From a virus, in IMG/VR virus record IMGVR_UViG_3300031651_000006, positions 1-37,953 of that record: a DNA stretch of 37,953 nt. The stretch is one strand, 5' to 3'. The number at the start of each line of letters is the position of its first letter. The stretch's first letter is position 1. Below are positions 712 to 21,294 of this stretch, piece after piece. The notes below the pieces were generated by a model that was not told the DNA's origin, did not search any database, and was given only the letters and a program-made list of their open reading frames with translations. The position numbers were made by a program, and so were the translations under genes.

Positions 712-720
712 ATCTTCTCC

Positions 721-2431: not shown

Positions 2432-2435
2432 AATA

Positions 2436-3186: not shown

Positions 3187-3250
3187 AAAAAAAGAGCCAA
3201 AAACAGAATGTTTTATCATTCTTATTCTTGGCTCTCTAAAGTGGAGCTCT
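3187..3250 (-). promoter_or_regulatory. Leader attenuator element R1
   Basis: On the minus strand this starts AGAGCTCCACTTTAGAGAGCCA. It then forms an outer stem AGAGCCA/TGGCTCT and an inner stem AGAATG/CATTCT around an ATAAAA loop, followed by seven T. It lies 26 nt before the HNH start codon, with GAAAGGA as ribosome binding site. R2 and R3 have the same architecture. It can act as a terminator for the upstream unit and as an attenuator for the downstream one. Confidence 0.8.
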
Positions 3251-3269
3251 TCATTATTTAATTTTTAGA

Positions 3270-3299
3270 AATTTATTTAATTATTATTTAAGTTTCCAA
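3270..3299 (-). promoter_or_regulatory. Putative promoter for R1 unit
   Basis: A possible -35 TTGGAA (3294-3299) and -10 TAAATT (3270-3275) are separated by 18 nt and end 19 nt before the AGAGCTCCA box. This is weaker than the promoters at R2 and R3 and overlaps the end of the lipoprotein gene. It is supported mainly by its equivalent position. Confidence 0.4.
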
Positions 3300-3706
3300 A
3301 CTCCATCGATCTTATTTAAATACATAGAAAAATTATTAATCGTTTCGTTTGAACTTGAACAAATTTCATCAAAACAAACGGTTGCAGTTAAAGTAAGATT
3401 GATATTTACTTTGGAATTATTACCATTTGTTTCAATATAGTTAAGGTAAGCAGTGAAAACTAAAGTTGAAGAAGCAAAATAAGGTGTATTCTGATATCCT
3501 TCAATCATCTGATAAGCATTTCCATTTGGGATACAATAAGTTTTGGCTAATTCAAATTCTCGATTAGATAATGCAACCCAATAATTATTCACCGTCATTA
3601 ATATTTCTTCTGCATTGTGGAGTGGTGGAGTAGTTATTCCAGAACACCCAACTAATGACAAAATCAAAAATATGATAAAGACCGACAATAAAATCTTTTT
3701 CCTCAT
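3284..3706 (-). CDS. Predicted lipoprotein
   Basis: The 140-residue product has a basic start (MRKK), a hydrophobic core and the lipobox LVGC with the lipidated Cys at residue 21. It should therefore be membrane-attached after signal peptidase II cleavage. The mature part has a helix followed by strands and ends DGVWKLK. This layout, with YWVALSNREFELAKTYC near the N-terminus, is reminiscent of NTF2-like/DUF4878-type domains, though that is only a visual similarity. Phage lipoproteins often act in superinfection exclusion; here this is inference. It sits between a small unknown gene and element R1 at the end of the structural unit. Confidence 0.8.
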   Translation of the reverse strand: MRKKILLSVFIIFLILSLVGCSGITTPPLHNAEEILMTVNNYWVALSNREFELAKTYCIPNGNAYQMIEGYQNTPYFASSTLVFTAYLNYIETNGNNSKVNINLTLTATVCFDEICSSSNETINNFSMYLNKIDGVWKLK

Positions 3707-3751
3707 TTAATTTCACCCCCCATATAATTATAAACCCTTTTCTCTATTCTT

Positions 3752-4168
3752 TCAACTTTTAGGGTTTTTGTTAATAATATCTTCTACCTTCATATTATAT
3801 TTCTCAAATCCTTCATCTGTTATTTCTAAATGGTCTAATATTTTTTTAAGGGTTTTTCTTAATATTTTGGCTTCCGCTGGTGGGTTATACATATCGTTTA
3901 TTTTACTTGATAATTTTGACCTTCTTTTGGTATCTCTAAAATATTGATATTTAATGTAATCAAACGCTATTATTTTATTATCTTTTAATTCGTATAATGG
4001 AAAACTATCCCAACTATCATCTCTAATTTTTATATCAAAATTCCATTCGATATTTAATTTATAATCATAACCCAATATTTCTTCTTCAGAAATATTTAGT
4101 ATAATCTCATGTTCTATTTCATTATTTTCTTCATTAAAAGTCATAGATTTAATTTTTATATATATCAT
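3752..4168 (-). CDS. Hypothetical protein downstream of tail hub
   Basis: A 138-residue, acidic protein beginning MIYIKIKSMTFNEENNEIE. The N-terminal half looks beta-rich and the C-terminal half helical (LRKTLKKILDHLEI). No signal peptide or catalytic motif is visible. It starts 9 nt after the hub gene ends, so it probably belongs to the tail transcription unit. The role is unknown. Confidence 0.7.
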   Translation of the reverse strand: MIYIKIKSMTFNEENNEIEHEIILNISEEEILGYDYKLNIEWNFDIKIRDDSWDSFPLYELKDNKIIAFDYIKYQYFRDTKRRSKLSSKINDMYNPPAEAKILRKTLKKILDHLEITDEGFEKYNMKVEDIINKNPKS

Positions 4169-4177
4169 TTTGTCTCC

Positions 4178-7084
4178 TTACCAATTTGCATACGTGTAAT
4201 GTTTTCTCCAAGCACCATTAGTATAAAGTTTAGTTTGTCCATCTCCATCGTCAAAAGCTAAATCTCCAGTATGACCTGTTGGAGCAGAAGATAAAGTAGG
4301 TAATTGTAATGTTCCCGTAGAATAAAGATAAAACACTGTTGAAGTAGCCCATAGTTCTATACTTCCCGTTCCCTTTAGTTGTAATTTCCCATCTGTGCCT
4401 AATGCCCCTGCTGTGCTACCAAGTGCTAATTGTAAATGTTTATATCCAGATTTATATATATTGATAGTTCTACTTCCAGCATCATACATCCTTATTCCAC
4501 TATCTTCAAAATAAATATCCTCGTTTGTTCCGCCACCAACTTGAATTCGAACTGACCTTAAAGTCCCTGTTCTGATATTAGTTGCGGTAAGTAGACTTGT
4601 TTTTATATAGCCGCCTACAATAATTGTATTGTCCAATAAAGCAGCTGATACTAAATTATAATAGGCTAAATCACTTACAATATCAGCAGTATGGTCAGCA
4701 TTGGTCGGAGGCTTTGTCCCTGTTATAGCTGCGTAGGCAATACTATCTAAAGTTGCCAAAGCTCCAGCGTCCGTTAAATTAGCTATACCAGAACCACCTA
4801 TTATAGTAAGACTGCCTTTTAGAGATAAGTTACTACCATCCCATTTTAGATATTGAGTATTAGTCCCGATATGCAGTTTATATTTGTCTACATTATAACC
4901 CATCCAAAAACCAGCAGTGGCTCCACCATAAGTTTTCCCGGTTGAGCGAATATAACCAGCGGTATTTAAGGTTATATTCCCTGCTGTGATAGTTCCTAAA
5001 TCTGCGAATATAGCGGCAAGGTTGGTTCCATATATTTGAGCTGCAGTAATACATTTAGCCACAAGATCATTAGCCCCCGTTTTATTGGGAGCTATACTAT
5101 CAGCAGTAGGGGTAGAGGTAGCTCCTTCTGTCCCCGTTTGAGTAAAAGCTTTAATTCTATATCGATAATATTTTGTATAAGTCAGAAGTAAATCAAGCCA
5201 CATATAAGCATCTAATCTAACCCTCTCAGTCCATTCCCCAGTCCAGGTAGTACCATCATCGCTTTCCTGTCTTTCCACCGCATAACCGGCAATATTGCCT
5301 TCGGTTGCTCCTGTCCAGGTAATTTTAATTCCCGCAAGTATTGCAGTCGCCACCGCCCCACTCACTTGATCTGGGGTCTCGCTGTCGGTAGCAGTAACCT
5401 GCGTAATCTGGGAACTCCAATTGCTTCTATTTCCGTATATATCTACTGCACGGATATATACTTCATACTCAATATTTTGTTCTAACCCAGTCCAGATAAA
5501 ACTGATATCAGTAATAGTAACCAGCCCAAAGTCAGAATAAGCAGTCTTTTTATATTTTAATTCATAATGGGAAAAATCATCTTCGGTGTTAGCATTCCAT
5601 TCCGCTTTTAGCCAGGCTAAACTGGCCTGAGTAATCGAACCCATTCCTGTAGATAAAGCCAGTCCGGTAGGAGTATCTGGAGCAGTGGTATCCCGTTTTA
5701 GGCTTTCGCTACTTTGATATAATAAACTTAACAACAGATCTTCTAAACCCTTTAATTTAGTGGCAATAGTAACATTATAAACATAATATATAACTTCTCC
5801 GCCTTCTACTGATCTATATGGTATTTCTGCATCGGCAGCCGGTTTATATCCTATAGTGGCAATAGTTGCCGGTTTGTAAGGTTCTTTAGCCTCTTCAATA
5901 ACTACATCAACCCTAATCAATTCTACCCTGTATATAAGAAAGTCCTGGTTAATATCTCTTTTGGTAGAGCTTAAAGTTATGATTTGACCGCTTCTAACAT
6001 CACTTTGATTAGTTACAAAAGTTCCCTCAATTACCGGATCAGCATTTTGTAATAAATCAGCTTTCGCCCTATCAATAGCCCATTCCTTAGTATCTATATT
6101 ATTATCAGTTATACAAAATTCATGAATACCATCCCCGCCTTCAATAGCTTTTACCGCATCGATAGAATCCTGGTCATCCCAGCGAATAATAATGGGCTCA
6201 TCGGCCCCATAGGTAATTACAATTTCATCGCCATCGGCAGGGGTAGGTGTAGAAGTCCCTAACGATAAAACTTTAGTAGTGGCATTTAACATAAAATCAT
6301 AATCATCGGGGTTATCTACTCCATCCCAACCTACCGTTTTGGCCACGTCATTTAAAGTTGCAGAAGGGGCCGGCAAAGCATTGGCCTGATATTTGCAAGT
6401 CCAGGTTACAGTTGAGCCATCCCCGATAAATAATTCGGTAAAATCAAGGGTTTCATATTTTGAGCTTTTTATATATACCCGGTTTCTTAGCTGGGATATA
6501 TCAGTATTGATGATTAGATCTTTATAATATTTTTGGTCATCATCCAATTGGAAAGAGGCCGGATAATCGGTTTTTAAAAAGAAATAAATATCTTTATCAT
6601 AATCGATATACCATTCGTAACCGCAAGTTTCTGCTATTTTAGTTATAGCTTCCGATACTTGAACATAATCGAAGGATATTCTGGTTATAGTGGGGCCATC
6701 GCTAACGTTGACATAAGTAAAACCGGTAGTATATTTATCGATAATATCTTTAATAATATAACCACCAGTTTTATCTGAATATGATTCGATAACTAATTTT
6801 TTATCTAAATCCCGGGTATGATCTATACATTCTACTTGATCTTTCAAGAGATTGGGATTTAAAAAATCTTCTTCTTTAGTCAAGATCCTTCCCGAAAATA
6901 ATTTAGTAGAGCCTTCTTCGATTAAGACTGATTCTCCATCAGTAGGGGCTAGGGCTATATCATTACAAATAAAGGCAAAAGAAGCAGAATTGACCCGATT
7001 GGTAAGTTCATCAATTATGCTTAAAGATCTTGCGTCAACATATTCAGTGCGATCCACACCCGCGATTTTAACTGTTATCCCCAT
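4178..7084 (-). CDS. Tail hub / central fibre protein with FN3 domains
   Basis: This 968-residue protein begins MGITVKIAGVDRTEYVDARS. Its N-terminal ~430 residues resemble the baseplate-hub fold of siphovirus tail-associated proteins (gp27/Dit-Tal-like). Two fibronectin type III-like domains follow at about 467-568 (DTPTGLAL to NRSNWSSQ) and 573-665 (VSGAVATAILAGIKITW to YRYRIKAF). The rest is Gly/Thr-rich fibre sequence. The C-terminus TGHTGDLAFDDGDGQTKLY with ...GAWRKH is typical of phage fibre tips. It follows the tape measure, the usual position for the host-contact tail-tip protein. Its start (GGGGATAACAGTTAAAATCG context) immediately abuts the tape-measure stop. Confidence 0.85.
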   Translation of the reverse strand: MGITVKIAGVDRTEYVDARSLSIIDELTNRVNSASFAFICNDIALAPTDGESVLIEEGSTKLFSGRILTKEEDFLNPNLLKDQVECIDHTRDLDKKLVIESYSDKTGGYIIKDIIDKYTTGFTYVNVSDGPTITRISFDYVQVSEAITKIAETCGYEWYIDYDKDIYFFLKTDYPASFQLDDDQKYYKDLIINTDISQLRNRVYIKSSKYETLDFTELFIGDGSTVTWTCKYQANALPAPSATLNDVAKTVGWDGVDNPDDYDFMLNATTKVLSLGTSTPTPADGDEIVITYGADEPIIIRWDDQDSIDAVKAIEGGDGIHEFCITDNNIDTKEWAIDRAKADLLQNADPVIEGTFVTNQSDVRSGQIITLSSTKRDINQDFLIYRVELIRVDVVIEEAKEPYKPATIATIGYKPAADAEIPYRSVEGGEVIYYVYNVTIATKLKGLEDLLLSLLYQSSESLKRDTTAPDTPTGLALSTGMGSITQASLAWLKAEWNANTEDDFSHYELKYKKTAYSDFGLVTITDISFIWTGLEQNIEYEVYIRAVDIYGNRSNWSSQITQVTATDSETPDQVSGAVATAILAGIKITWTGATEGNIAGYAVERQESDDGTTWTGEWTERVRLDAYMWLDLLLTYTKYYRYRIKAFTQTGTEGATSTPTADSIAPNKTGANDLVAKCITAAQIYGTNLAAIFADLGTITAGNITLNTAGYIRSTGKTYGGATAGFWMGYNVDKYKLHIGTNTQYLKWDGSNLSLKGSLTIIGGSGIANLTDAGALATLDSIAYAAITGTKPPTNADHTADIVSDLAYYNLVSAALLDNTIIVGGYIKTSLLTATNIRTGTLRSVRIQVGGGTNEDIYFEDSGIRMYDAGSRTINIYKSGYKHLQLALGSTAGALGTDGKLQLKGTGSIELWATSTVFYLYSTGTLQLPTLSSAPTGHTGDLAFDDGDGQTKLYTNGAWRKHYTYANW

Positions 7085-9093
7085 TAGTGCCTCCGGTTAA
7101 GATTTATTTTTCTCAATATTTCATTGCTTACCGTCATAGCCAATCTTCTAGTATCTACCTCATCAGATATTTTATTATCGTGAATGTCTACATATATTTT
7201 AGTTTCACCAAAACTGGTTGAAGTAATATTTGAAGTCCCTACCGGTCCACCACCGGCAAAGGCAGGGACCGGGGTAGGCATCCCACCTACAACTGCAGCT
7301 ATTAAATTACTGGGGATCGCCCTAAATTTTTTAATAAAATCAGTCATGGGTTTGGCTATTACATATTCCCCTAGGGTTAATCTGGCCGGTATAGTATCAG
7401 CCACCCCACCAAATTGAAACTTTTTAACCTGACCGCCCATATCATAACCTACTCCACCGCCTTTTTCCCAGCCAATACCTAACCAGGGAAATAGCCAGGA
7501 AAAGGCTGCTAATACAACTAATTTCGCTATCATTGCAGCCACTGCTTTAATTAAAATATCCTTTAATCCTTCCCAAAAATTAGACCAACTCCACTCAAAT
7601 TCTTCCGACCCGGTTAATAATGCTTCTATGGCATTGGCTAAATTACTTTCAAGATAACCCACGATAGGATCAACAATGTTAGACTTAAAATCATTCTTTA
7701 GATTTTCAAATATGCTCATAATACCAGTCGATAATGTCTCTACAGGTTCATATACTAAAGGTAATCCATCAGTTATTCCTCTTCCGAGCTCCCCTGGGAT
7801 ATTCATTCCCCATTTATGAAGATCTTTTAACGGACCATACTCAATCGGTGAACGACTTCTAATAGGTTTGGCTATTGTCTCAACAACCCCATCCATTGCT
7901 TTTTCTATTCTCGGATTACCTGCTGCCAGTCCATTACCAAGGGCTTCTGTAATCTTCTTTCCCCAACCCTTAACCCAGTCAATAAGTTTATTAAGTCTTT
8001 CAAAGCCAGCTATAACAAAATCTATCATAGGCTGTATCTTTCCAAGTATTTTATCTTTTAAATCAGTAAAGAAAGCCACTATCTTTTCTACAAATCCACT
8101 AACATATTCAACAATTTTATCCCAGTTTTTCCAGATTGCAATTATGGCAGTAACCGCGATAATAAGTAATCCGATTGGGCCGGTTGCCACTGTTCCTATT
8201 AAAGCTATTGCGGGAGCCACCGCACTAAAAGCAGAAACTAACATCAGGATTGGCCCACCTACTGCAGCAGCAACTCCCACCACCGCAGCCACTTTCGTTA
8301 TTGTGGCAACCAGTTCAGGGTTTTCTTTAGTCCAGGCAACAACCTTGCCTACTATTTCAGTAACCTTTTCTATTAGGGGAATAACCGCCGGGATTAAAGT
8401 ATCTCCAATGGTCCTACCTGCACCAGCCAAAGATCCTTTTAAATCGGTCATCCTATCGGTAAATTCGGCTGCCTTAGTGGCTGCTTCGGTAGACATAGTT
8501 ATACCTAATTCTTTGGCCTTATTCATTAATTCATCTATACCACCCTCACCCTCTTTGAGTAAAGGTAATAATTGAGGGCCGGCTCTTGCTCCAAATAAAT
8601 CCATAGCAAGGGCTGCCTGTTTTGTAGGATCTTCAATAGCCGCTATTTTGGTAGCTGCCTCTTTCAAGACATCAACCGTACCCCTTAAATTGCCTTCTGA
8701 ATCCATAACAGCAATATCTAATAATTCAAAGGCTTCCATACCCTCACCGATTCCCATTGAAGCGTCATCCATTACTTTGGTTAGGCCTTTTAAACCTTTT
8801 TCTAATGTCAAAATATCTGTTCCGGATATATCTGCAGCATAAGCCAGGGCTGATAAATCCTCTACTGCCACCCCAGTCCGTAAGCTCATCTTGTCAAACT
8901 GATCACCGACTTGAGCAGTTTTGGTTACAATAGTGGCAAATGCAGCAGTAACTATCCCACCAACAACCGTTGCAGCCTTACCGATTTTCCCTATTTTTTC
9001 AGAAAAACTGGTTACATTTTTACCTGACTTATCTAATTCACCTTTTAATTTTGAGCCATCACCTAAAATGTTAACCCATATATCAGTAGCCAA
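7084..9093 (-). CDS. Tape measure protein
   Basis: The 669-residue product starts at a TTG (9091-9093) preceded by GGGGGTG. The N-terminal ~120 residues are helical with an early hydrophobic segment (AATVVGGIVTAAFATIV). A central block at ~260-330 has several hydrophobic, Ala/Gly/Val-rich helices typical of tape-measure proteins. Further hydrophobic helices lie near 530-560. The Gly-rich C-terminal part (KGGGVGYDMGGQVKKFQFGG and LTLGEYVIAKPM) is common at tape-measure ends. By the usual 0.15 nm per residue rule, the tail would be about 100 nm. It follows the frameshifted chaperone gene, as expected. Confidence 0.92.
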   Translation of the reverse strand: MATDIWVNILGDGSKLKGELDKSGKNVTSFSEKIGKIGKAATVVGGIVTAAFATIVTKTAQVGDQFDKMSLRTGVAVEDLSALAYAADISGTDILTLEKGLKGLTKVMDDASMGIGEGMEAFELLDIAVMDSEGNLRGTVDVLKEAATKIAAIEDPTKQAALAMDLFGARAGPQLLPLLKEGEGGIDELMNKAKELGITMSTEAATKAAEFTDRMTDLKGSLAGAGRTIGDTLIPAVIPLIEKVTEIVGKVVAWTKENPELVATITKVAAVVGVAAAVGGPILMLVSAFSAVAPAIALIGTVATGPIGLLIIAVTAIIAIWKNWDKIVEYVSGFVEKIVAFFTDLKDKILGKIQPMIDFVIAGFERLNKLIDWVKGWGKKITEALGNGLAAGNPRIEKAMDGVVETIAKPIRSRSPIEYGPLKDLHKWGMNIPGELGRGITDGLPLVYEPVETLSTGIMSIFENLKNDFKSNIVDPIVGYLESNLANAIEALLTGSEEFEWSWSNFWEGLKDILIKAVAAMIAKLVVLAAFSWLFPWLGIGWEKGGGVGYDMGGQVKKFQFGGVADTIPARLTLGEYVIAKPMTDFIKKFRAIPSNLIAAVVGGMPTPVPAFAGGGPVGTSNITSTSFGETKIYVDIHDNKISDEVDTRRLAMTVSNEILRKINLNRRH

Positions 9094-9094
9094 T

Positions 9095-9669
9095 CTACTT
9101 TTTCACCCCCACAAAAGCCAAAAATGCCCTATAGAAAAGCATTTTTAACTCATATACTTCAAGAGCATCTTCCATTATCCAATCTAGATCATTCGGGGGA
9201 ATTTCCAGAATATCTCTATACCCGTAACTATAGGCAAAAGATAGGATCTTAGTTATTTCCCGGAATCCCCCGGCCTGAAATATTTTTTTAACCCAGATAT
9301 TTGAACGATTGCCGCCTGTATCCTTTCAAATTCACTAACGTCAATCATCTCTTCAAATTGATCTATGGTCAGATCCTTTGCTTCCGGATTCCATTTTTTA
9401 ATTACAGTCAATAAGGTATAAAAACTATAATCATAAGTGGCAATATCGTCATCTTTCTTTAATTTCTTTTTTTCTATGTTCAATTTCTTGATATTCAGCA
9501 TAGAGAGAGGTTTTACTATATATTCTTTGTCCCCTATTTTAACCGGGGAAGTATAGACTATATCTTCAACTTCCTTTTCTTTGGCCGGATTATAGCCATC
9601 TTTCCCGCCTACAACTTTTAATCCTTCAAGTTTAGGTTTTTTTTCAATATCTTTTTTATTTTTAGACAT
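9095..9669 (-). CDS. Tail assembly chaperone, long -1 frameshift product (gpGT-like)
   Basis: The short frame (9253-9669) contains the slippery heptamer A AAA AAA at 9283-9289, read as codons AAA AAA. A -1 slip there enters an open frame of 62 codons ending with TAG at 9095-9097 (IFQAGGFREITKILSFAYSY...). The fused product would be 191 residues. This position, directly before the tape measure, and this -1 slip match the conserved lambda G/GT tail chaperone system. The GTG/TTG start of the tape measure overlaps the end of this frame region by a few bases. The frameshift is inferred from sequence, but the open -1 frame and the classic heptamer make it strong. Confidence 0.85.
9253..9669 (-). 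CDS. Tail assembly chaperone, short product (gpG-like)
   Basis: This 138-residue, charged protein begins MSKNKKDIEKKPKLEG. Its middle (VKIGDKEYIVKPLSMLNIKKLNIEKK) and C-terminal helical half fit the tail assembly chaperone family that binds the tape measure during tail assembly. It ends ...GLKKYFRPGDSGK a few codons after the slippery site, as in other G/GT pairs. An ATG with AAGGAAGGAG upstream supports the start. Most ribosomes should make this form and a minority the fusion. Confidence 0.85.
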   Translation of the reverse strand: MSKNKKDIEKKPKLEGLKVVGGKDGYNPAKEKEVEDIVYTSPVKIGDKEYIVKPLSMLNIKKLNIEKKKLKKDDDIATYDYSFYTLLTVIKKWNPEAKDLTIDQFEEMIDVSEFERIQAAIVQISGLKKYFRPGDSGK

Positions 9670-9770
9670 AATACTCCTTCCTTATTATTAGATAATTATA
9701 CAGAATACCCTCAAAAAACGACCCTGCATACCCTATATAATGAAATTTTAAACTACCGGTTATCTTTACC

Positions 9771-11219
9771 TTAATACCCGGTTTCAAGGTTAATTAAGGT
9801 AATTTTATAAGGATATCCTAAACTTGCATCGTATTTTGCCTTACCGGTAACCCCGCAGACTATCGGTCCTGGTCCTGACATATTAATAGGATAAGTCAGG
9901 TATCTAAATTTAGGCATATCAATTATTAGAGTATAATAATATCCGGCTTCACATTCTGCCCCCACAAATTTAACCTGGAAGGCCTGTTCCGTACCGAGTA
10001 TAAATTTATCGTATTCGGTACGATCTACAAAATCGATACTAAAGTTAACCGGTATTTCTCTAAAACCACTTCTAATAATTTTTCTCAATATAGCAGTATT
10101 ATTTAAGGCATATTTTCCTACACATTTATTATCATAATTTATCCCAAAGGTATTTATATCATTGTTAGGAGATCCAGCTATACTAATAACTGCCTGCTCC
10201 CAGGTAAAAGGATCGGTAGTTTCAAAAGATGGAGCGGTCTTTGGTGTATCGCCTAAATTCTTAGCAATGATTCCATTGGTAGCCTTTAAGATTTTATCAG
10301 TGGTAGAGAAATTTAAAGCCAGGGTATTAACTATTGCCCCTAAAAACTGGAAGGCATCCCCTTGATCCCGGTAAACCTCTAAAGTATAAGGGTTAATCGG
10401 ACAATCTGCATGAAAATCAGTAGCCTGTCTGGGAATAAATACGTGCTGTTTAGCATTGGTGGCATCACTGGTAACCAATCTTCTTACATCATCAATATTA
10501 ATAGTAAATTCCCCTTTATCGGTGTGCATTTTAATTCCAAGACTGATTACTGCGTCAAAATTGGTCATAGTTCCCAAATTTATAGTACATTCCTTTTCAA
10601 CCCCAGCAGTTAAAGCAGGGATATCAACCGATTTTAAGGTAGTACCTTCAACCCCGCCACAATTGGCCAATTCACTAAGCATAAAGACTAAATCTCCGAC
10701 AGCACAGTCAACAGATGACTTTATCCAAAACTTTATATGAGTATCTAGGTGCATATCGGTTAAAGTCACTACTTCGGTGGCTAAAATAGTATCAGCAGCC
10801 ACTCCGGTAGTAACCTGTAATTTGACTGATTTAGTTCCTTTTTTGAACCAATTAGCATCTATACCGGATATTACTCCGCCATCCACCGATTCATCAAAGG
10901 CATCCTCACAGTCCTCTAATTCTGTTTCTGCTGTACCTGCCGGGGTAGCCCCTGCCGGCTCATTAATGGCACTTCTTAATAAATGGCCCAAACTTGCGGG
11001 ATGTACTTCCACAACAATATTACCAGGAAAAGCCTTTTCTCCTTGATAAGATTTTGGCTCATCAAGTATTCCCCTTTGGGCTGCAGATAAAACTTCTTCG
11101 ATGTTCGGGATCAGGGTTTCAGAAACAAATGGTAAGAAAAAATCATTATCCCCTGCTTCCTTCTGTCCCCAGATTAATTCTTTTTTAATTCCTATGTGTC
11201 CCCTTGCTCCTTGTCCCAT
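9771..11219 (-). CDS. Major tail tube protein with an inserted carbohydrate-binding-like domain
   Basis: The 482-residue product is longer than typical tube proteins (about 150-300). The N-terminal ~95 residues and the C-terminal ~225 residues together read like a siphovirus/myovirus tube protein (FIPRQATDFHADCPINPYTLEVYRDQ; GSPNNDINTFGINYDN). Between them, at about 100-250, lies a beta-rich insert (FDESVDGGVISGID..., IKFWIKSSVDCAVGDLVFML, INIDDVRRL) resembling a jelly-roll carbohydrate-binding module. It lies upstream of the chaperone and tape-measure genes, the normal place for the tube protein. The insert would decorate the outside of the tail. Confidence 0.8.
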   Translation of the reverse strand: MGQGARGHIGIKKELIWGQKEAGDNDFFLPFVSETLIPNIEEVLSAAQRGILDEPKSYQGEKAFPGNIVVEVHPASLGHLLRSAINEPAGATPAGTAETELEDCEDAFDESVDGGVISGIDANWFKKGTKSVKLQVTTGVAADTILATEVVTLTDMHLDTHIKFWIKSSVDCAVGDLVFMLSELANCGGVEGTTLKSVDIPALTAGVEKECTINLGTMTNFDAVISLGIKMHTDKGEFTINIDDVRRLVTSDATNAKQHVFIPRQATDFHADCPINPYTLEVYRDQGDAFQFLGAIVNTLALNFSTTDKILKATNGIIAKNLGDTPKTAPSFETTDPFTWEQAVISIAGSPNNDINTFGINYDNKCVGKYALNNTAILRKIIRSGFREIPVNFSIDFVDRTEYDKFILGTEQAFQVKFVGAECEAGYYYTLIIDMPKFRYLTYPINMSGPGPIVCGVTGKAKYDASLGYPYKITLINLETGY

Positions 11220-11406
11220 TATTTTTCAGCTCCTTTCTTTTTAATTTTTTAACTTTTCTTTTTTTCTCTTTTACTAAATCAAAATAGCCGGATTCTAAAT
11301 ATTTTTTTGCCTTTGATTCATCATCAGTTACTACAAATTCATTAGGTTTAAAAACCCCCAATCCGACTACTTCTAATTCAGTTTTTCGATTATACTTCAA
11401 TATCAT
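11185..11406 (-). CDS. Small phage protein before tail tube gene
   Basis: A 73-residue protein starting MILKYNRKTELEVVGLGVFK, with GAAGGTGA upstream. The first ~45 residues look like a small beta domain (VVGLGVFKPNEFVVTDDESKA). The last 28 are strongly basic (KKRKVKKLKRKELKNN). It overlaps the tube gene start by 35 nt. Similar small basic proteins occur at this position in other siphoviruses; the role is unknown. Confidence 0.7.
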   Translation of the reverse strand: MILKYNRKTELEVVGLGVFKPNEFVVTDDESKAKKYLESGYFDLVKEKKRKVKKLKRKELKNNGTRSKGTHRN

Positions 11407-11421
11407 AAGATCACCTTCTCT

Positions 11422-12867: not shown

Positions 12868-12877
12868 CTATTATTCC

Positions 12878-13045: not shown

Positions 13046-13054
13046 AATATTTTC

Positions 13055-13079
13055 TTGGGGAGTTTAAGGCACTCCCCAA
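13055..13079 (-). terminator. Perfect 9-bp stem-loop between structural genes
   Basis: The sequence TTGGGGAGT...ACTCCCCAA forms a 9-bp perfect stem with a 7-base loop. On the minus strand it is followed by GAAAATATT rather than a T-run, so it is a weak terminator at best. A transcript-processing or stability hairpin downstream of the beta-helix gene is equally possible. Confidence 0.5.
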
Positions 13080-13091
13080 ACCTGTTAATTT

Positions 13092-14123: not shown

Positions 14124-14152
14124 AATATTAAATCTCCTTTCGTTTTAATCTT

Positions 14153-14183
14153 TTAAGAGGGGGGCAATTTACTCCCCCCTCCG
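14153..14183 (-). terminator. G-rich stem-loop downstream of major capsid gene
   Basis: GAGGGGGG pairs with CCCCCCTC around a 9-base loop, giving an 8-bp, very GC-rich stem in AT-rich DNA just after the capsid stop. On the minus strand it is followed by TTAAAAG, not a proper T-run. It may partly terminate or stabilise the capsid mRNA, raising capsid expression over downstream genes. Confidence 0.5.
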
Positions 14184-14201
14184 TTGTTATATCTAAGTTG
14201 T

Positions 14202-15116
14202 TTAAGTTATACAAGCTTTCATTAAATAACTACAATCTACTGCAACTAATTTTTCATCGACTATCATAGAAGGCTCGAACCAATCACTATGTTTGACTTC
14301 TAATCGAGCCCTACGAACTTTATTTGTTCCAACTTTAAAGGTATAGCCCATAGAGAATTTTTTGATTCCAGGTCTAGGTTCCACATAAGCAAGTAAGGCA
14401 TATTTGCCCCAGAGATAACCATAAACCGCAGTCTGACCCTCTTTTTTGGTATTATAACCAGCAGCACCGATTATTACCTTATCCACTTCAAATATACTGG
14501 CCATAAGTTCAGGGGTAACTACGCCCTTCTGGACATATTTGATCCGATCCAAAATATCGGGATGGTGTTTCAATTGGTCATAGACCTGCACCCCCAATAA
14601 TAGTGTATTCGGATATCTGAATATCCTGCTGTGGATATCCTGTTTCCCAGTTTCGATATCACTTATAGGATCAGAATCAGCATATACATTCCATTTGGTA
14701 GAAATGGTAGCACCTTTTGTCATCAATGCCCCGGTCAATAAATTAGCTATCCTTTGTTCTTGTGCAAGTTCAATAATATCAGTTAAAAATTCTACGGTAT
14801 CTACCGTTAAATTTAAGGGTTTATCAGCGTTGTCCTTTTCTCGATCATCAATTAGATCGTTTAAAGCGTGTTCTTCGCACTGATAAGTCCCGGTGGTTAC
14901 TTTCCAATCGACTGTTTTTGATTCGGTTTTAGGTGCTCTTAATGTATTGGGAACTCTAAACCGATCAGCCTTAGAATCATATTTATAATATTTATCGCTT
15001 TCTTTTTTAACCGGCACAACCGGCATTAATTGCAATCCTACATAGGCAGCATTGCTATATTTTTCGGAAATATTACTTAAAATTGCGTCAGTATGAACGT
15101 TTGCAACATCTGGCAT
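14202..15116 (-). CDS. Major capsid protein (HK97-fold family)
   Basis: This 304-residue protein begins MPDVANVHTDAILSNISEKY. It contains features of Mu/HK97-like coat proteins: an N-terminal arm, VVPVKKESDKYYKYDSKADR, the E-loop-like AKTES...DWKVTTGTYQCEEHALND, a spine-like long helix DIIELAQEQRIANLL, and the C-terminal beta region with EVDKVIIGAAGYN and MGYTFKVGTNKVRRARLEVK. It follows the decoration gene and the protease-scaffold gene, the standard order. The length suits an HK97-fold coat without a delta domain, since scaffold is encoded separately. Confidence 0.9.
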   Translation of the reverse strand: MPDVANVHTDAILSNISEKYSNAAYVGLQLMPVVPVKKESDKYYKYDSKADRFRVPNTLRAPKTESKTVDWKVTTGTYQCEEHALNDLIDDREKDNADKPLNLTVDTVEFLTDIIELAQEQRIANLLTGALMTKGATISTKWNVYADSDPISDIETGKQDIHSRIFRYPNTLLLGVQVYDQLKHHPDILDRIKYVQKGVVTPELMASIFEVDKVIIGAAGYNTKKEGQTAVYGYLWGKYALLAYVEPRPGIKKFSMGYTFKVGTNKVRRARLEVKHSDWFEPSMIVDEKLVAVDCSYLMKACIT

Positions 15117-15153
15117 TTATTTTCAACTCCTTTCTTTTATTTATTCTTTATTA

Positions 15154-15552
15154 TTATCCTACGAATGCATTATATAAAAAGTGAACGATTAACACTTCAA
15201 TTATATCGTCAGCAAGAGTAGCATTTTCCAAAGCTATTCCCCCGACAAAATCTACATTGGTAGTGGTAGCCAATCCTTCACTATAACTTACTTCTTGATC
15301 GGAAGCAGTTAAAAAATCACCTTCATTACAAGTGCCACTCATTACCAATTTACCTGTACCCAATACTCTAACCCGGGCAGCCTTATCCTCGGCATCTGGA
15401 GCATTCATTAATATACCGATAATTGTATCGGTACTTGCAGTACAATGCTCAACTTTACCGTCTGCATCAAGTTTTACAAAATGGTATTGATATAAAGATA
15501 AATCTTCAGCGGCCTTAAAAGTTATGTCTAAGACACTAAGATCCTGAGACAT
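15154..15552 (-). CDS. Capsid decoration protein (DUF2190-like)
   Basis: A 132-residue beta-rich protein starting MSQDLSVLDITFKAAEDLSL. The motif YQYHFVKLDADGKVEHCTAS followed by IIGILMNAPDAEDKAARVRV and GTGKLVMSGTCNEGDF matches the DUF2190/capsid decoration family. These coat the capsid at three-fold sites. It lies between the scaffold and coat genes, as in many phages with this family. Confidence 0.85.
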   Translation of the reverse strand: MSQDLSVLDITFKAAEDLSLYQYHFVKLDADGKVEHCTASTDTIIGILMNAPDAEDKAARVRVLGTGKLVMSGTCNEGDFLTASDQEVSYSEGLATTTNVDFVGGIALENATLADDIIEVLIVHFLYNAFVG

Positions 15553-15594
15553 TATTTAACACCTCTCTTCAGCTAATTATTATTTTATTAATGA

Positions 15595-16173
15595 TTATTT
15601 TTTCTTTTTTTCTTCTGTATCTTCCAGAACGGCCAGGACAGCATCTCGATAGGATACATCTTTATGCTCATCCATGTACTTCTGGACCTTCTTCTCTTCT
15701 GGGGTTGATTTATCTTTATCCTCATCCCCTTCCTCTTCGCCCTTGCTTAATTCAGCAAAAATGGAGTCAGAGAAATTAGGTTGAAGTTCGATAAATTTTT
15801 CCAGTAATTCCCGCTGTGAAAGTTTAGTCTCTTTGTCATCTACCGTAAACTTGATCTTCTTTTCATCAGAAGTGGACTCTACAAGAGCCATTAAAATATC
15901 TTTCTGTTTAGGTAGAAAACGAATGTCTTTTTCGGAGCAGTGATCATCAATAAAGGTTTTTATCTCGGCTTCTCTTTTTTCCTTAGAGATTTTGCCTAGC
16001 TTATCTTCTGCTTCTTTGGTCTTTTTCTCTTCGGCTTCAAACTTTTCTTTAAATCCCTTGGCCTCTTCCTTTTCCTTATCTGATGCTTCCTTCTCCTTCT
16101 CAATTTTCTCGTAATCTTCCACTGCGACAAATTTCTTACCTTCTACTTCAGTGATCTTAATTCCGTTTGGCAT
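15595..16173 (-). CDS. Nested scaffold protein (internal in-frame start)
   Basis: An internal ATG at 16171-16173 is preceded by GGAAGG at a good distance, and opens MPNGIKITEVEGKKFVAVED. It would give a 192-residue product that is almost entirely charged coiled coil (KEKEEAKGFKEKFEAEEKK, then EEEGDEDKDKSTPEEKK). This is the same layout as lambda C/Nu3 and Mu I/Z, where the scaffold is translated from within the protease gene. The existence of the shorter product is inferred from the ribosome binding site and domain boundary. Confidence 0.65.
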   Translation of the reverse strand: MPNGIKITEVEGKKFVAVEDYEKIEKEKEASDKEKEEAKGFKEKFEAEEKKTKEAEDKLGKISKEKREAEIKTFIDDHCSEKDIRFLPKQKDILMALVESTSDEKKIKFTVDDKETKLSQRELLEKFIELQPNFSDSIFAELSKGEEEGDEDKDKSTPEEKKVQKYMDEHKDVSYRDAVLAVLEDTEEKKKK

Positions 16174-17079
16174 GATATATACCTTCCTTTCTTTGGATTT
16201 TTCTATATGTGGTTGCCCCGGTCCAGGCCTCTCAACCCTTCTCATTTGGCCACCACATTCAGGACATTTTATTTCATTACAGTGTTTATCGCTGGTCATT
16301 TTATAACCACATTTAATACATTCACAATTATATTTTTCTACTTTTTGATATATAATTAAATTGGCATCCTCATTAAAATCATATAAGGCAGCAATATCTT
16401 TTAAATTGGTTACCGCCGGTAAATCAGCACCTAAAAAAGCTATGGCTGAGAGGACTTTATTGTATTTCTTTTTGGTGCTGGGCTCTGTGTAACCGGCCAA
16501 AATCTCACTTGATATCCTCTTATATGCCCCATTTTTAATTAATTGATATAAAACCTTAGGCACTTCCTTTATATCTACTAAAATTTTATCCCCTGCCCTC
16601 TTCAACTTTGTAATCCAGCCACCAGCAGGTAATCCTGTTCTCTGTAATAGCGCTTGTTTATCGTCATGACCCAGTTTTACTTTAGGTTTTAGTTTGTCAA
16701 TTATTTCATTAGTGCCATTTACAATATCATTAAGGTCTTTATCGGTGATTTTATTACCCTTCCATACTCCAATACCAAAGACCTCAACATCTTTTAATTC
16801 ATAAGTCTGGGAATAAGCTTCCCACATTGCCAATTCCAGAGTGCTTAAATTCCCCTGGGTTTCAGTTTTAACCCAGTTACCCTCTTTATCCTTTTTCCAA
16901 CCTGCTTTTTTAAGACCGGCCCAGGCTGTGGCATTAGCTAAACCTTCCCTGTCGGCTCTATCTTTGTACTGCTCGTAAGCATTATTATAAATATCGATCC
17001 AGGTTTTCTGGGCATCAGCCGGTAAACCTTTTATCCCTTCCGGGATATCACTCGGATACTTGTAAGGCATATAACTCAA
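15595..17079 (-). CDS. ChaB-domain + Mu I-like prohead protease + scaffold fusion
   Basis: This 494-residue protein has distinct parts. Residues 1-75 form a ChaB-like domain (YKYPSDIPEGIKGLPADAQ, then YNNAYEQY). Residues ~85-245 resemble Mu gpI-like protease with His138 in KLGHDD and Ser190/191 in KRISSEI. A zinc-ribbon with four Cys pairs spans ~252-280 (CECIKCGYK, CPECGGQM). A long charged coiled-coil scaffold begins with Met303. An internal ATG (16171-16173) with GGAAGG upstream probably gives a separate scaffold product. The gene overlaps the portal gene end by 32 nt. Confidence 0.85.
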   Translation of the reverse strand: MSYMPYKYPSDIPEGIKGLPADAQKTWIDIYNNAYEQYKDRADREGLANATAWAGLKKAGWKKDKEGNWVKTETQGNLSTLELAMWEAYSQTYELKDVEVFGIGVWKGNKITDKDLNDIVNGTNEIIDKLKPKVKLGHDDKQALLQRTGLPAGGWITKLKRAGDKILVDIKEVPKVLYQLIKNGAYKRISSEILAGYTEPSTKKKYNKVLSAIAFLGADLPAVTNLKDIAALYDFNEDANLIIYQKVEKYNCECIKCGYKMTSDKHCNEIKCPECGGQMRRVERPGPGQPHIEKSKERKVYIMPNGIKITEVEGKKFVAVEDYEKIEKEKEASDKEKEEAKGFKEKFEAEEKKTKEAEDKLGKISKEKREAEIKTFIDDHCSEKDIRFLPKQKDILMALVESTSDEKKIKFTVDDKETKLSQRELLEKFIELQPNFSDSIFAELSKGEEEGDEDKDKSTPEEKKVQKYMDEHKDVSYRDAVLAVLEDTEEKKKK

Positions 17080-19237
17080 CTCCTTTTACATTTATAAAAT
17101 TTTTAGGCTTTATAGCCATAATTTTGGCCTTATCTCCTTTAGATATAGGAGTAAATTTCTCATATTTAGTTACCGGGACCAGAGTTCCCCTGCACTCATA
17201 ATGATTGGGTGGTTTTACCCTGGCTAAATCAGGATCGCCCTTTTCAAATACCTGGCCATCCAACCGTTCGCATATCTCGGTAGTCCGATCATCCATAACA
17301 GAGGAATAGGCTACTGCCGGCACAAAATCCCCTACATCCGGATCGTTCATCATGGCCCAGCGCCCCTCATTATAGGCATCGCTAAAATTGGTTCTTACTA
17401 CATTTTCAAGGTGCCAGGGAGTTAATTCTCTCCCGGTTTTTATCTCTATCGCAGTAGTCCCGATATATTCTTTAAAAAATCCATCCAATTGAAACATTAT
17501 CTCTGAGGTAGTAGTCCCGCCTTTAAGACCGTTATATAAGATCGCCCTTGCTTCTTTTAAGACATCATCTCTTATCACTCCAGCAATCCAGAAGGATTTA
17601 TTATTTAAATACTGCAGAGCCTTTTTAGGTGGCAACCCAGGGACTATATCAATAAATTTCATTTTACCCAGTTCGCTGTTTACTTCTTCCCGGCCATATT
17701 GCCATAAATCTCTTAGGTATTCCTGTATTTTATTCTTTAATTCTCCGACATAAGATAATTGTATTTTTTCAATCTGGGAAGCTGAATTAGTTTCAATGAT
17801 CTTCTTTCTTAAGATATCTTTTTTAAGAGCTTCCTTCTGTTTATTTATAATCTTTATAAGTTCTTCTTTAGCTTCTGCTTCCCAATTATTTAAATTTTTA
17901 ATTATCCTGGTAAAATCACATTTTTTTTCATACTGGTTAGTTTGCCTTTTTAACCCGGCTTGATAATCTTCTGCAAAGCCCCCGCCTTTAGGTTTGGGTT
18001 CAGGTAAAATTATCCCTTCTTCTTTGGCTGGGATCTTAAGGAATTCCCGGACCCACTCCTCTTCCGGATTAATCAGGCCACCGTCAACTAACATTTTAGC
18101 AATTTTAGCCTTTGCTTCCTGATCATCTTTTATAAGTGATTCAAATTTAAAATAAGGATATTTAGGATCTGGGAAATTAAAATCTATCAACCGCTTTATG
18201 ATCTGTTCCCGGACTATGGTATCTTCAGTTTCGCCTCCTAAATAATCAAGTATGTAAATAAAGATATCAAAATGAGTTTTAGAAAGAGCCCAACTTCCTT
18301 TTTCCCCGGTATCCATTAAAAGAGTCCCCACCAGTAAAGCCCGGGAAATCATGACATTATTGGTGTCAAAGGCTGATTTATATCCTGCATCGCCTCTTCT
18401 AACAGCCTCTAAAAGTTCAGCTTCTAAACCTTTGGGCATTACTATTGCAGTATCGGTTTGAATGGTTTTTAATATGTCTAAATATTCATCCTGTTTATTC
18501 TTGGGAGTACCGGTTTCATAACGACCTATTACAGTGGGCTGGCCAAACTTTTCTAAAAAGATATTCCAGAATCTTTGTACAATATCATTAGAGAAATAAT
18601 ACCGGTAGGCTGCCCTAAAATCAGACTCACCATATAAGCTGTCCGCATCGTCATCATTGGGATTGTAGGCAAAGAGGATAAATTTATTGACAGGCAAGTG
18701 TGTATTATAACCTTCAATCAAGCCTTTTTCTTCAATATTGCCATGTTCATCACATTTAAACATATAATTTATAGCTTTCCGGACCTTGATATTATCAATC
18801 CCGATCATCCCTTTAAATTCTCCACTGGGAAGGACCTTATAATTAATTTCAGCCACTGAAAAACCGTCACGCATAGCATTCCAAATTTTGAGCAGGGTAT
18901 TATTTACATTACCCTTCATTTCAGAAAAACAATGCTTAATAAATTCAGCCTGTTTTACTGCATCTGGATCGTCCTCATTTTCCGGCCTGATATCCCAAGG
19001 AGTAGATAATCGAGCATGCTTCTTTAACATAAATACAGCCTTAACCTGGCCATCTCTTCGTTGCATTTTCCTATATATTTCCAATCCTTTTTTTTCTACC
19101 AGGTCATCAGGATTGTAGATAGGAAGATCACCAATTCCCCAAATATCATTTTTAGAGCGGGATATTTCACCCATATCCGGTTTAGCTAATTTCTTTATGT
19201 TATCTTTAATATTTTGAAATATATTTTTAAAATCCAT
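17048..19237 (-). CDS. Portal protein (Mu gp29-like, DUF935) fused to Mu F-like head protein
   Basis: The 729-residue protein starts MDFKNIFQNIKDNIKKLAKP with AAAGGAGA upstream. Residues ~35-440 match Mu gp29/DUF935 portals (EIYRKMQRRDGQVKAVFML, NAMRDGFSVAEINYK, YYFSNDIVQRFWNIFLEKFG, VMPKGLEAELLE). The C-terminal ~130 residues match Mu gpF-like minor head protein: VRTNFSDAYNEGRW, YSSVMDDRTTEICERLDGQVF, PPNHYECRGTLVPV. In Mu these are separate genes; fusion occurs in some phages. Promoter and attenuator element R2 lie immediately upstream, so this is the first gene of the head-tail unit. Confidence 0.92.
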   Translation of the reverse strand: MDFKNIFQNIKDNIKKLAKPDMGEISRSKNDIWGIGDLPIYNPDDLVEKKGLEIYRKMQRRDGQVKAVFMLKKHARLSTPWDIRPENEDDPDAVKQAEFIKHCFSEMKGNVNNTLLKIWNAMRDGFSVAEINYKVLPSGEFKGMIGIDNIKVRKAINYMFKCDEHGNIEEKGLIEGYNTHLPVNKFILFAYNPNDDDADSLYGESDFRAAYRYYFSNDIVQRFWNIFLEKFGQPTVIGRYETGTPKNKQDEYLDILKTIQTDTAIVMPKGLEAELLEAVRRGDAGYKSAFDTNNVMISRALLVGTLLMDTGEKGSWALSKTHFDIFIYILDYLGGETEDTIVREQIIKRLIDFNFPDPKYPYFKFESLIKDDQEAKAKIAKMLVDGGLINPEEEWVREFLKIPAKEEGIILPEPKPKGGGFAEDYQAGLKRQTNQYEKKCDFTRIIKNLNNWEAEAKEELIKIINKQKEALKKDILRKKIIETNSASQIEKIQLSYVGELKNKIQEYLRDLWQYGREEVNSELGKMKFIDIVPGLPPKKALQYLNNKSFWIAGVIRDDVLKEARAILYNGLKGGTTTSEIMFQLDGFFKEYIGTTAIEIKTGRELTPWHLENVVRTNFSDAYNEGRWAMMNDPDVGDFVPAVAYSSVMDDRTTEICERLDGQVFEKGDPDLARVKPPNHYECRGTLVPVTKYEKFTPISKGDKAKIMAIKPKNFINVKGVELYALQVSE

Positions 19238-19254
19238 ATATCTCCTTTAGAAAT

Positions 19255-19319
19255 AAAAAAAAGAGAGCCAGTAAGAAGCTTTTAGGTTTCTCAAAACTGG
19301 CTCTCTAAAGTGGAGCTCT
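19255..19319 (-). promoter_or_regulatory. Leader attenuator element R2
   Basis: On the minus strand this reads AGAGCTCCACTTTAGAGAGC, then the outer stem GAGAGCCAGT/ACTGGCTCTC, an inner region with GAGAAACC/GCTTCTT, and eight T. The first 20 bases are identical to R1. The T-run ends 18 nt before the portal start codon, leaving room only for the ribosome binding site, so transcripts for the portal unit must cross the hairpin. Confidence 0.85.
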
Positions 19320-19342
19320 ATAAACAATATTTATTTTTTTTC

Positions 19343-19371
19343 AGAATAGCACAAAATTATTTATTAGTCAA
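19343..19371 (-). promoter_or_regulatory. Promoter of the portal unit
   Basis: TTGACT (19366-19371) and TATTCT (19343-19348) are spaced by 17 nt, with TGC just before the -10 (extended -10). This gives a good sigma70-like promoter in the gap after the terminase gene, 23 nt before the AGAGCTCCA box of R2. The position of the promoter upstream of a terminator-like hairpin matches R3. Confidence 0.7.
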
Positions 19372-19410
19372 ATCATTTTACTTTACATAACGCTAATTAT
19401 AGGCTAACAA

Positions 19411-20745
19411 TTACCAATCCTGGTTAGAAGTCGCCCTTTTCCCTGCACTTCTTCCTTCAATTATAAAACTATCCTCTAACATGTCAGGCATTAACTCATA
19501 CACCAGCCAAACTAAAGCATCGAGACGATCTGGGGATTTATCCCCTGGCACCCACTCACAAAGTTGATCTTCTAAATCCGGGAAGTTCCCCACGTGGTGG
19601 ATTTTATTTTGTTCATATAAGGCACTAACTGGTTCAGCTCTCACATATTTACCCCGGGAAGCCCTGACGCTCTTATATGAGATATTTGCTTCAATGGACC
19701 TTATAACATATTCAACCATATCACCGCCATTATTTACTTCTCCTACTATTCGATCCGCCAAAAGTTTATGATAAGCGGTTACCGCGGCATTGCCCCATTT
19801 ATCCGGACTTCCCTTTATGGTGGCATCTTCTAAAATCCATACGTGCCTGTCCTCACTTAAACCGCCTCCAATTATCCCGGTTTCAGAGGACATAATATTG
19901 TCAGTAGCCTCTGGATCGATGGCAATTGCAATCCTGATTAATTTAGGCGCTTTATTTCTACGATTATTTTCAATAATCTTCCTGGTCCATAAAGCATTAG
20001 GGTTATCCTCTAAGATCTGTCCATGAATCTCTTGCCTCCCCAATCTTGTACCTTCATATTTTTTAATTACATAATCAAAATATCTTTGAGGTAGATTATC
20101 CTTATTCTCGTAAGTACTGCCAGTAATATCTATAGTATCGGGGTCATCTTTCAATTCTTTAATTATTGGAATAGGTCTGGGAGTAGTGGTAACTAAAATT
20201 CTTATATCCTCTCTATTTCTCAACCCAAATTGAAGATTATTCCATACCGCTTGAGGATGCTTGAATTTGGCCAGTTCATCTATCCAGGCAATATCATGAC
20301 TTGGCCCCCTTACCTGGTCTGGCTCATCCCCTGAATAAATAGTCCCCACACAACCATTAGGCCAGGTTACTCTTCTTTTGGAAGATTCATATGTGGGCAT
20401 AAAATCAGGTCTTGAAACTTTTAGTATTGAAGCAGGCCCCAACTCTACCATTATATCTCTGGCGTCTGCTTTAGTTTCTCCAATTAAAGCTATATGTTCA
20501 GCTCCCTTTTTAGCCTGACTTATAACATATTCTGAACCTGTCCGGGTCTTTCCCCAGCCCCTTCCGGTTCTGATCAGCCAGGTCAACCAGTCTCCGAGTG
20601 GCGGTAATTGTTTCGGCCTAGCCCAGACTTCCCAATCATATAAGATATCTTCGGCTTCTTCTTCGGTCAGGCTATTTAGTAATTTGTCTCTTTGCTCTTT
20701 TGGCAATAAGGCTATCGATTCTTTCAATGAGTTTCTTTTTGGCAT
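19411..20745 (-). CDS. terL: Terminase large subunit
   Basis: The 444-residue protein is the DNA-packaging motor. The ATPase half shows the Walker A-like GRGWGKTRT (61-69), Walker B IAWIDE (152-157) and the coupling motif TTTPR (186-190). The nuclease half shows the acidic residues Asp277 in IAIDPEAT and Asp409 in DRLDALVW, as in RNase H-like terminase nucleases. It overlaps the small subunit gene by 74 nt. It ends in a 173-bp gap that holds the next promoter and R2. Confidence 0.95.
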   Translation of the reverse strand: MPKRNSLKESIALLPKEQRDKLLNSLTEEEAEDILYDWEVWARPKQLPPLGDWLTWLIRTGRGWGKTRTGSEYVISQAKKGAEHIALIGETKADARDIMVELGPASILKVSRPDFMPTYESSKRRVTWPNGCVGTIYSGDEPDQVRGPSHDIAWIDELAKFKHPQAVWNNLQFGLRNREDIRILVTTTPRPIPIIKELKDDPDTIDITGSTYENKDNLPQRYFDYVIKKYEGTRLGRQEIHGQILEDNPNALWTRKIIENNRRNKAPKLIRIAIAIDPEATDNIMSSETGIIGGGLSEDRHVWILEDATIKGSPDKWGNAAVTAYHKLLADRIVGEVNNGGDMVEYVIRSIEANISYKSVRASRGKYVRAEPVSALYEQNKIHHVGNFPDLEDQLCEWVPGDKSPDRLDALVWLVYELMPDMLEDSFIIEGRSAGKRATSNQDW

Positions 20746-21157
20746 CGATAATCTTTAATTCTCCTTCGACTTTTATATTATGTTTTTCAGAGGGATATAT
20801 CCCCATCAACTTAGCTTCCTCTTTGGTTATTTCAAATACTAATCCTAAATCAGCGATATCAACCGTCTTTTTATTATCTCCTCTTCCTATGATAACTTTT
20901 TTATTATAGGCTTTATCTTTTAAATCCCTCAATTGAGATATATGATAGCCCATTCCCGCCCTTTTCAAATTCTTAAAATATTTTTGCCATTCTTTTTTTG
21001 CTGAATTAATATAATTATAGGCTTGCCGCTTTTCCAGACCCCAGTTTTTTGCAATGAATTGCAATATAAAACTCATCGGTTTTCTTCTTAATAATAAGCT
21101 AACCTGATATATCCTTTTTTGTTTTTCTACTTTGTCTATTTCAGTCCTTTTATTCAT
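20672..21157 (-). CDS. terS: Terminase small subunit
   Basis: This 161-residue, mostly helical protein begins MNKRTEIDKVEKQKRIYQVS. It has a putative DNA-binding helix-turn-helix at about 28-55 (FIAKNWGLEKRQAYNYINSA) and a basic C-terminus (KKKLIERIDSLIAKRAKR). Adjacency to terL and overlap of its 3' end with terL identify it as the small subunit, which recognises the packaging site. It is the first gene after promoter-attenuator R3, with TTGGAGA as ribosome binding site. Confidence 0.8.
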   Translation of the reverse strand: MNKRTEIDKVEKQKRIYQVSLLLRRKPMSFILQFIAKNWGLEKRQAYNYINSAKKEWQKYFKNLKRAGMGYHISQLRDLKDKAYNKKVIIGRGDNKKTVDIADLGLVFEITKEEAKLMGIYPSEKHNIKVEGELKIIDAKKKLIERIDSLIAKRAKRQITK

Positions 21158-21181
21158 TTATCTCCAATTATCTTTTGAAAT

Positions 21182-21249
21182 AAAAAAAGAGCTACCATTC
21201 AAAGAAGGTTTTAAACTTCTTAAAAAATGGCTCTCTTATTTGGAGCTCT
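21182..21249 (-). promoter_or_regulatory. Leader attenuator element R3
   Basis: On the minus strand it reads AGAGCTCCAAATAAGAGAGC, then the outer stem GAGAGCCATT / AATGGTAGCTC, an inner stem AAGAAG/CTTCTT with a TTTAAAAC loop, and seven T. It has the same architecture as R1 and R2, but sequence changes in the stem are partly compensated. The T-run ends 24 nt before the terS start. Confidence 0.85.
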
Positions 21250-21265
21250 ACAATATTCTATTTTA

Positions 21266-21294
21266 ATTATATCACTTGGATTTAATTACTTCAA
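21266..21294 (-). promoter_or_regulatory. Strong promoter of the packaging unit
   Basis: TTGAAG (21289-21294), a 17-nt spacer and a perfect TATAAT (21266-21271) with TGA just upstream (extended -10). It is 16 nt before the AGAGCTCCA box of R3, so transcription should begin a few bases before the leader element. This is the best promoter I see in the window. Confidence 0.8.

Follow-up and report, generated by a model that had tools for sequence, protein, structure and literature searches.

Com-type hairpins that overlap intrinsic terminators as putative antiterminators of late operons in a group of mostly uncultured phages

In phage Mu, the zinc-ribbon protein Com (PF10122) is encoded beside its single target, a hairpin that overlaps or borders a structure inhibiting translation before mom. 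Com binds GAAUGCCUGCGAGCAUC in the mom mRNA, and its motif from systematic evolution of ligands by exponential enrichment (SELEX) is NGAGNNCC(N)2-3GAGNNCCNN (PMC6483171). The subject of this study is an element repeated three times (R1, R2 and R3) in IMG/VR record IMGVR_UViG_3300031651_000006, positions 1 to 37,953, a stretch of 37,953 bases of virus DNA that we call the window. In each repeat a hairpin of the Com-target form overlaps a predicted intrinsic terminator close before a phage gene. The elements differ from Mu in having several sites per genome, an intrinsic terminator as the second structure, and late structural and lysis genes as targets. We consider Com-dependent antitermination of late operons the best explanation of them and hold it with good confidence, on the strength of sequence comparison.

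Other described systems share parts of this arrangement. At the ribonucleic antiterminator (RAT) sites of BglG/LicT and in the leaders of ANTAR proteins (EutV/NasR), a protein-held hairpin overlaps and excludes an intrinsic terminator, as we propose for the present elements. Those systems act on sugar or nitrogen metabolism rather than phage late genes, and here there is a small zinc ribbon with no PRD/CAT or ANTAR protein or motif; the resemblance is mechanistic only. At lambda pR'-tR', a promoter, a short leader and a terminator also precede the late genes, and in both cases read-through is expected from a phage protein made early. For lambda Q, loading depends on a promoter-located DNA element, and polymerase then ignores many terminators, whereas the likely factor here would engage the RNA of every leader, through a single site for each module. 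A sequence-only reading of the window had likened the repeats to pR'-tR' with Q; that analogy applies to the layout but not to the factor, which appears to act on RNA in the manner of BglG/RAT or ANTAR and for which a Com-like gene lies just upstream. Our PHROGs scan of the window proteins gave no Q-like match; no search aimed at Q was made. The put RNAs of phage HK022 are likewise leader hairpins tied to antitermination and, like some copies of the element, include tandem hairpins; they act without protein and on distant terminators, whereas each hairpin here shares bases with the terminator of the same leader and has the form of a protein target. Antitermination by RNA-binding proteins (BglG/RAT, ANTAR) and the binding of RNA by Com were already known, each on its own; the novelty would lie in Com acting as antiterminator at several late-gene targets in one phage. 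Com-dependent antitermination was not found in the literature searched, a scope outside which most subscription journals fell.

The box AGAGCTCC and the 5' arm of the terminator (AGAGAGCC) form a small hairpin, GA-N4-C-loop-GA-N4'-C, and the Mu site, GA-AUGC-C-UGC-GA-GCAU-C, has the same form. Box and arm in the window agree with both parts of the SELEX motif at all fixed positions. The second half of the hairpin is the lower part of the terminator 5' arm; because the two structures share these bases they cannot coexist, and only one can form at a time. When leaders were folded with RNAfold as far as the 5' arm, the hairpin was predicted at −4.5 to −4.7 kcal/mol, its two bulged adenines placed symmetrically. 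With the 3' arm added, the terminator was predicted in R1 (−24.2) and R2 (−21.3), and in the full R3 leader (−17.4) the box paired with part of an altered 3' arm. Such a hairpin, upstream of and exclusive with an intrinsic terminator and backed by covariation, is what a protein-dependent RNA antiterminator is expected to have.

All three repeats lie where the sequence-only reading had placed them, in minus-strand orientation (R1, 3250-3187; R2, 19319-19255; R3, 21249-21182). The pattern AGAGCTCCA-N(3-8)-AGAGAGCC matched only these three sites in the record, and a reversed control matched none. A covariance model scored the three copies at 69.2, 66.6 and 59.2 bits, the next-best matches being their own antisense strands. 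The same reading had argued for function as RNA from stem changes in R3 that were thought to keep pairing. We found instead an insertion in the 3' arm of R3 (GGTAGCTCT), which the covariance model placed as a bulge; function as RNA is supported by covariation between the box and the 5' arm.

That covariation was seen in copies found with the covariance model, in which the boxes GAGC-TA-C, GAGC-GA-C and GAGC-TT-C were paired with the arms GA-TA-GCC, GA-TC-GCC and GA-AA-GCC, respectively. Because these dinucleotides varied, we rescanned with both of them free. Among the 82 unique copies recovered, the box and arm dinucleotides were TC/GA in 42, TA/TA in 11, TT/AA in 8, GA/TC in 3 and wobble pairs in 5; another 12 had one mismatch (CC/GA, AC/GA), and one was a chance match. 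After removal of near-duplicates, 96 of 106 pairs were standard, compared with 73.2 (standard deviation 2.5) in shuffles, none of 20,000 of which reached 96. The outer positions of the helix varied too with pairing kept (ACGC/GCGT, GTGC/GCAC, ACCC/GGGT), so that all four positions vary, and pairing was also kept while the spacing between box and arm ranged from 2 to about 10 nucleotides (nt), or about 28 in one variant. The arms AGAGRGCC and GGYTYTY had been fixed in the early search patterns, and arm conservation in those searches is therefore partly the result of selection; the covariation test and the phages selected by Com (below) are independent of those patterns.

Several variants of the leader were seen. 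In a long-leader form upstream of portal genes, TGAGCCCCGGAATATACTTAATGATTTGATTAACTAC-AGAGAGCC (L086, L090, L091, L094-L096 and L104), the roughly 28 nt between box and arm hold a small stem of their own. Three tandem Com-type hairpins, with GCTC, ACCC and GCTC helices, precede a single terminator at G005:C1:22311-22362 (L163) and in L039 near 2504-2590. Just 5' of the box a AAATTAAATAA-like stretch is conserved in the window (region 3257-3272) and in other copies, whether or not a promoter is visible.

The element is widespread. An exact pattern scan of IMG/VR gave 76 stretches, most of them with a hairpin, a T-run and a start codon close behind; two looser scans and the covariance model then added copies, some of which break the first search patterns. 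Altogether 143 distinct element sequences were obtained among fetched loci, mostly IMG/VR contigs, with up to 4-6 per genome, and the homologues and covariation that the sequence-only reading had called for were in this way found. In 103 of the 143, a ribosome site and an open frame follow no more than 70 nt past the T-run (median gap, 24 nt). The genes after the elements encode the Mu-type portal, two other portal-like families, and scaffold-like, terS-like, ParB-like, and fibre or lipoprotein products, all but the Mu-type portal being named by reading the sequences. The commonest gene directly after an element encodes a small protein of 57-64 amino acids (IKAVEIRKDKKLM...ISEVLRNSALK; 17 loci, for example L007, L014, L016 and L157). 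A structural scan for a hairpin plus terminator found 33 sites in 17 phage contigs, where Markov controls gave 0-3 (mean 0.7); it found none in two relatives picked by capsid protein.

Among bacterial genome contigs there was one clear late-operon copy, which stands ahead of the com-terS-terL-portal series of a Clostridium ljungdahlii prophage; the arrangement in a second genome of the genus Clostridium matches it. A host-wide element was rejected, since this copy was the one true late-operon element among ten matches in the genome scan; several others were Lachnospiraceae loci with a box and arm near com, and the remainder look like chance. By blastn no relative of the window was found among isolated phages. 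The sequence-only reading knew of no described family, and this stands for the whole element, which had no Rfam match at threshold; half of it, however, is the known Com target. The Rfam family RF02960 (DUF2800 RNA) resembles the element in having a hairpin 3' of a TAAATAACTG-like stretch, and it occurs in clostridial genomes. Locus L169 scored 33.7 bits against it, under the cut-off of 60.2, and the window copies scored nothing; the GA-N4-C hairpin was not seen in the DUF2800 loci read, and identity with a known Rfam family was rejected.

Com did not figure in the sequence-only reading. The window has a com-like gene about 100 nt upstream of R3, that is, in the same phage and near the target, as Com targets are expected to be. 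Its product matched phrog_6417, a translational regulator (E=6.7e-6), and a hidden Markov model (HMM) of Com at E=5e-24, the window sequence itself being among the seeds. Of the relatives tested, three, from C. ljungdahlii and contigs G006 and G015, pass the Pfam PF10122 cut-off for Com; a Pfam Com scan of 291 Clostridia genomes gave two over the cut-off. Of 15 long contigs with the element, 14 had a homologue by the Com HMM, and two relatives that lack the element had none; some of these contigs contributed seeds to the HMM, and the counts are therefore not wholly independent. Clustering of whole contigs by blastp for a common factor had overlooked Com, a short and divergent protein that the HMM recovered. 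Among loci retrieved through portal or capsid homologues rather than through the element, com was present in 13 of 15 with an element and in 5 of 22 without (Fisher p=1.9e-4, uncorrected for related contigs); in four of the latter five the strict scan had missed a long-leader or GCGA variant. In com-bearing loci, 86 of 87 elements follow com in the same orientation, and only in the C. ljungdahlii prophage does the element precede com, lying just 5' of it. At L190:242-287 the box and arm lie within the end of a Com-like frame, where they read RAPREP, and the protein C-terminus and the RNA site share bases. A coding origin of the box and arm of this kind was rejected for the window copies, which lie outside called genes.

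Phages were also picked solely by a Com homologue (Pseudomonas, Moraxella, Stenotrophomonas, uncultured Peduoviridae and Mu). These have one or two perfect hairpins each, about 104 and 126 nt into com, where 0.01-0.17 per locus were expected, and mostly just 5' of a DNA methyltransferase or modification gene; in Escherichia phage Chuche the hairpin has a single mismatch. In loci L280-L287, from Pseudomonas, Moraxella, Stenotrophomonas and Escherichia phages, com usually overlaps or precedes such a gene and has one or two Com hairpins within its frame, a general com-mom-like pair.

Promoters and adjoining genes in the window are listed in Table 1. A promoter had been claimed upstream of each copy. 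For R2 and R3 this was borne out, the −10 box ending about 16-24 nt 5' of the conserved box; in the same check of the three leaders, none was found directly at R1. The T-runs end about 17-25 nt ahead of the HNH, portal and terS-like starts, close before these genes as had been noted, and the earlier view that promoter, leader and terminator gate late modules that need read-through is well supported. That the copies open packaging, head-tail and fibre-lysis units holds for R3 and R2; at R1 an HNH gene comes before the fibre gene. It is probably an insertion, since the fibre gene follows the element directly in contigs G003 and G009, with no HNH gene between them. The endolysin gene (36661-37155) is at the opposite contig end from the fibre genes (163-3161), which fits a circularly permuted genome with the R1 module running across the contig ends. 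The terS-like gene is named by its position and relatives, with no family match above phrog_34910.

Table 1. Features of the R1-R3 leaders and adjoining genes, in window coordinates.
Feature	Position	Strand	Remarks
com-like zinc-ribbon gene, likely trans-acting RNA-binding protein	21347..21553	-	probable ATG start near 21526
R3 promoter, sigma-70-type TTGAAG-17-TATAAT, extended TG	21266..21294	-	
R3 Com-type antiterminator hairpin (putative), GA-GCTC-C-AAATAA-GA-GAGC-C	21229..21248	-	
R3 intrinsic terminator and T-run (predicted)	21182..21236	-	overlaps R3 hairpin
terS-like gene, opens packaging module	20672..21157	-	translation and position beside terL
terL	19411..20745	-	Pfam PF03237 and PF17289
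R2 promoter, sigma-70-type TTGACT-17-TATTCT, extended TG	19343..19371	-	kept upstream of homologous portals
R2 Com-type antiterminator hairpin (putative), GA-GCTC-C-ACTTTA-GA-GAGC-C	19299..19318	-	
R2 intrinsic terminator and T-run (predicted)	19255..19306	-	overlaps R2 hairpin
Portal gene, Mu-type with Mu F-like domain, opens head-tail module	17048..19237	-	Pfam PF06074 and PF04233
R1 Com-type antiterminator hairpin (putative), GA-GCTC-C-ACTTTA-GA-GAGC-C	3230..3249	-	
R1 intrinsic terminator and T-run (predicted)	3187..3237	-	overlaps R1 hairpin
HNH endonuclease-like gene	2436..3161	-	HIDHIIP...N motif in translation
Tail fibre gene of R1 module	721..2271	-	phrog_9017

Comparison among phages established the element, the overlap of its two structures, the covariation of box and arm, the identity of the motif, the association with Com and the gene order. 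We propose that each element would be a protein-controlled attenuator of one late-gene module. In this scheme com would be expressed ahead of the late modules. Without Com the terminator would prevail and the module would stay off; with it, the Com-like protein would bind the nascent hairpin and hold it, the terminator would be blocked, and polymerase would read on into the packaging, head-tail and fibre-lysis genes. We infer both the binding of these leaders by a Com-like protein and the read-through that it would cause.

Several observations weigh against this proposal. Mu Com is known as a translational and not a transcriptional regulator (PMC6483171). The spacer in R1-R3 is 6 nt, compared with the 2-3 nt of SELEX, although many relatives have 2-3 nt. 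About 15% of the free-scan copies, that of C. ljungdahlii included, have a mismatch in the helix. The Com-like protein of the window was not reported by Pfam at the PF10122 cut-off, though it matches phrog_6417, and in contig G007, which bears the element, the HMM found no recognisable Com. Conversely, no hairpin was found near the Com-like gene of Anaerostipes phage AC844P2 or near those of two bacterial loci.

The mode of action of Com in Mu raises the alternative that Com binds the hairpin, as proposed, and that its main output is translational or on RNA stability as in Mu mom, with the T-run secondary or insulating. At four sites that have this box and arm (G014:C1:29330 and the clostridial loci L149, L185 and L193), the Shine-Dalgarno sequence falls within the second hairpin, which suggests a translational version of the switch. 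These were the only sites with a second structure that blocks the translation start; in the window the second structure is the terminator, and there and in most relatives the ribosome site lies free, past the hairpin and the T-run. The 7-8 T that follow a G+C-rich stem in the window, and the retention of T-runs in divergent copies, also speak against a mainly translational output, which we regard as unlikely for the elements at large; some clostridial loci may nevertheless form a translational branch.

Another RNA-binding protein of phage or host, or an RNA-only mechanism like that of put, might use the hairpin, com being merely a neighbour. The contig without recognisable Com, the AAATTAAATAA-like stretch outside the Com motif and the tandem hairpins ahead of one terminator would fit such a factor. 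Exact agreement with both the SELEX and the native Com motif would not, nor would the association of com with the element or the occurrence of the hairpin after com in unrelated phages, and we judge this explanation quite improbable.

Terminators between phage modules are common, and a generic terminator scan of the region found no excess (13, against 12.6 in shuffles), as might be expected if the elements were ordinary intergenic terminators that insulate modules, unregulated and with a stem shared by descent or recombination. Yet the R2 and R3 promoters precede the terminator rather than follow it, box and arm covary far beyond shuffles, many unrelated genes follow the element, and the Com motif and the association with com also speak against it; there is very little to be said for this explanation. 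A DNA site (operator, origin, or pac/cos packaging signal), suggested by the copy beside terS and by the palindrome GAGCTC in the box, is scarcely credible: there are several copies per genome ahead of different genes, and the position of the T-run is fixed; an operator dyad was rejected on the variable box-arm spacing with pairing kept, and a pac/cos site on the copies that precede portal, scaffold and fibre genes.

Antitermination by Com thus being the preferred reading, it seems likely, if somewhat less firmly so, that Com zinc ribbons are late-gene antiterminators of a large, mostly uncultured phage group, a single protein turning on several late modules through terminator-overlapping hairpins, and that the translational control of Mu com-mom is one branch of a wider switch with both outputs. 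Because the helix is free to vary, one protein could read many leaders. CRISPR tools employ Com as an RNA aptamer tag, and its hairpin is easily found computationally; the C. ljungdahlii prophage offers an independent case in a cultured host. If the proposal is true, the change from early to late expression in many uncultured phages would have a concrete mechanism open to testing, com-like genes ahead of terS would gain a likely function, and the role of Com would broaden from that of a translational activator with one target to a probable regulon-wide antiterminator.

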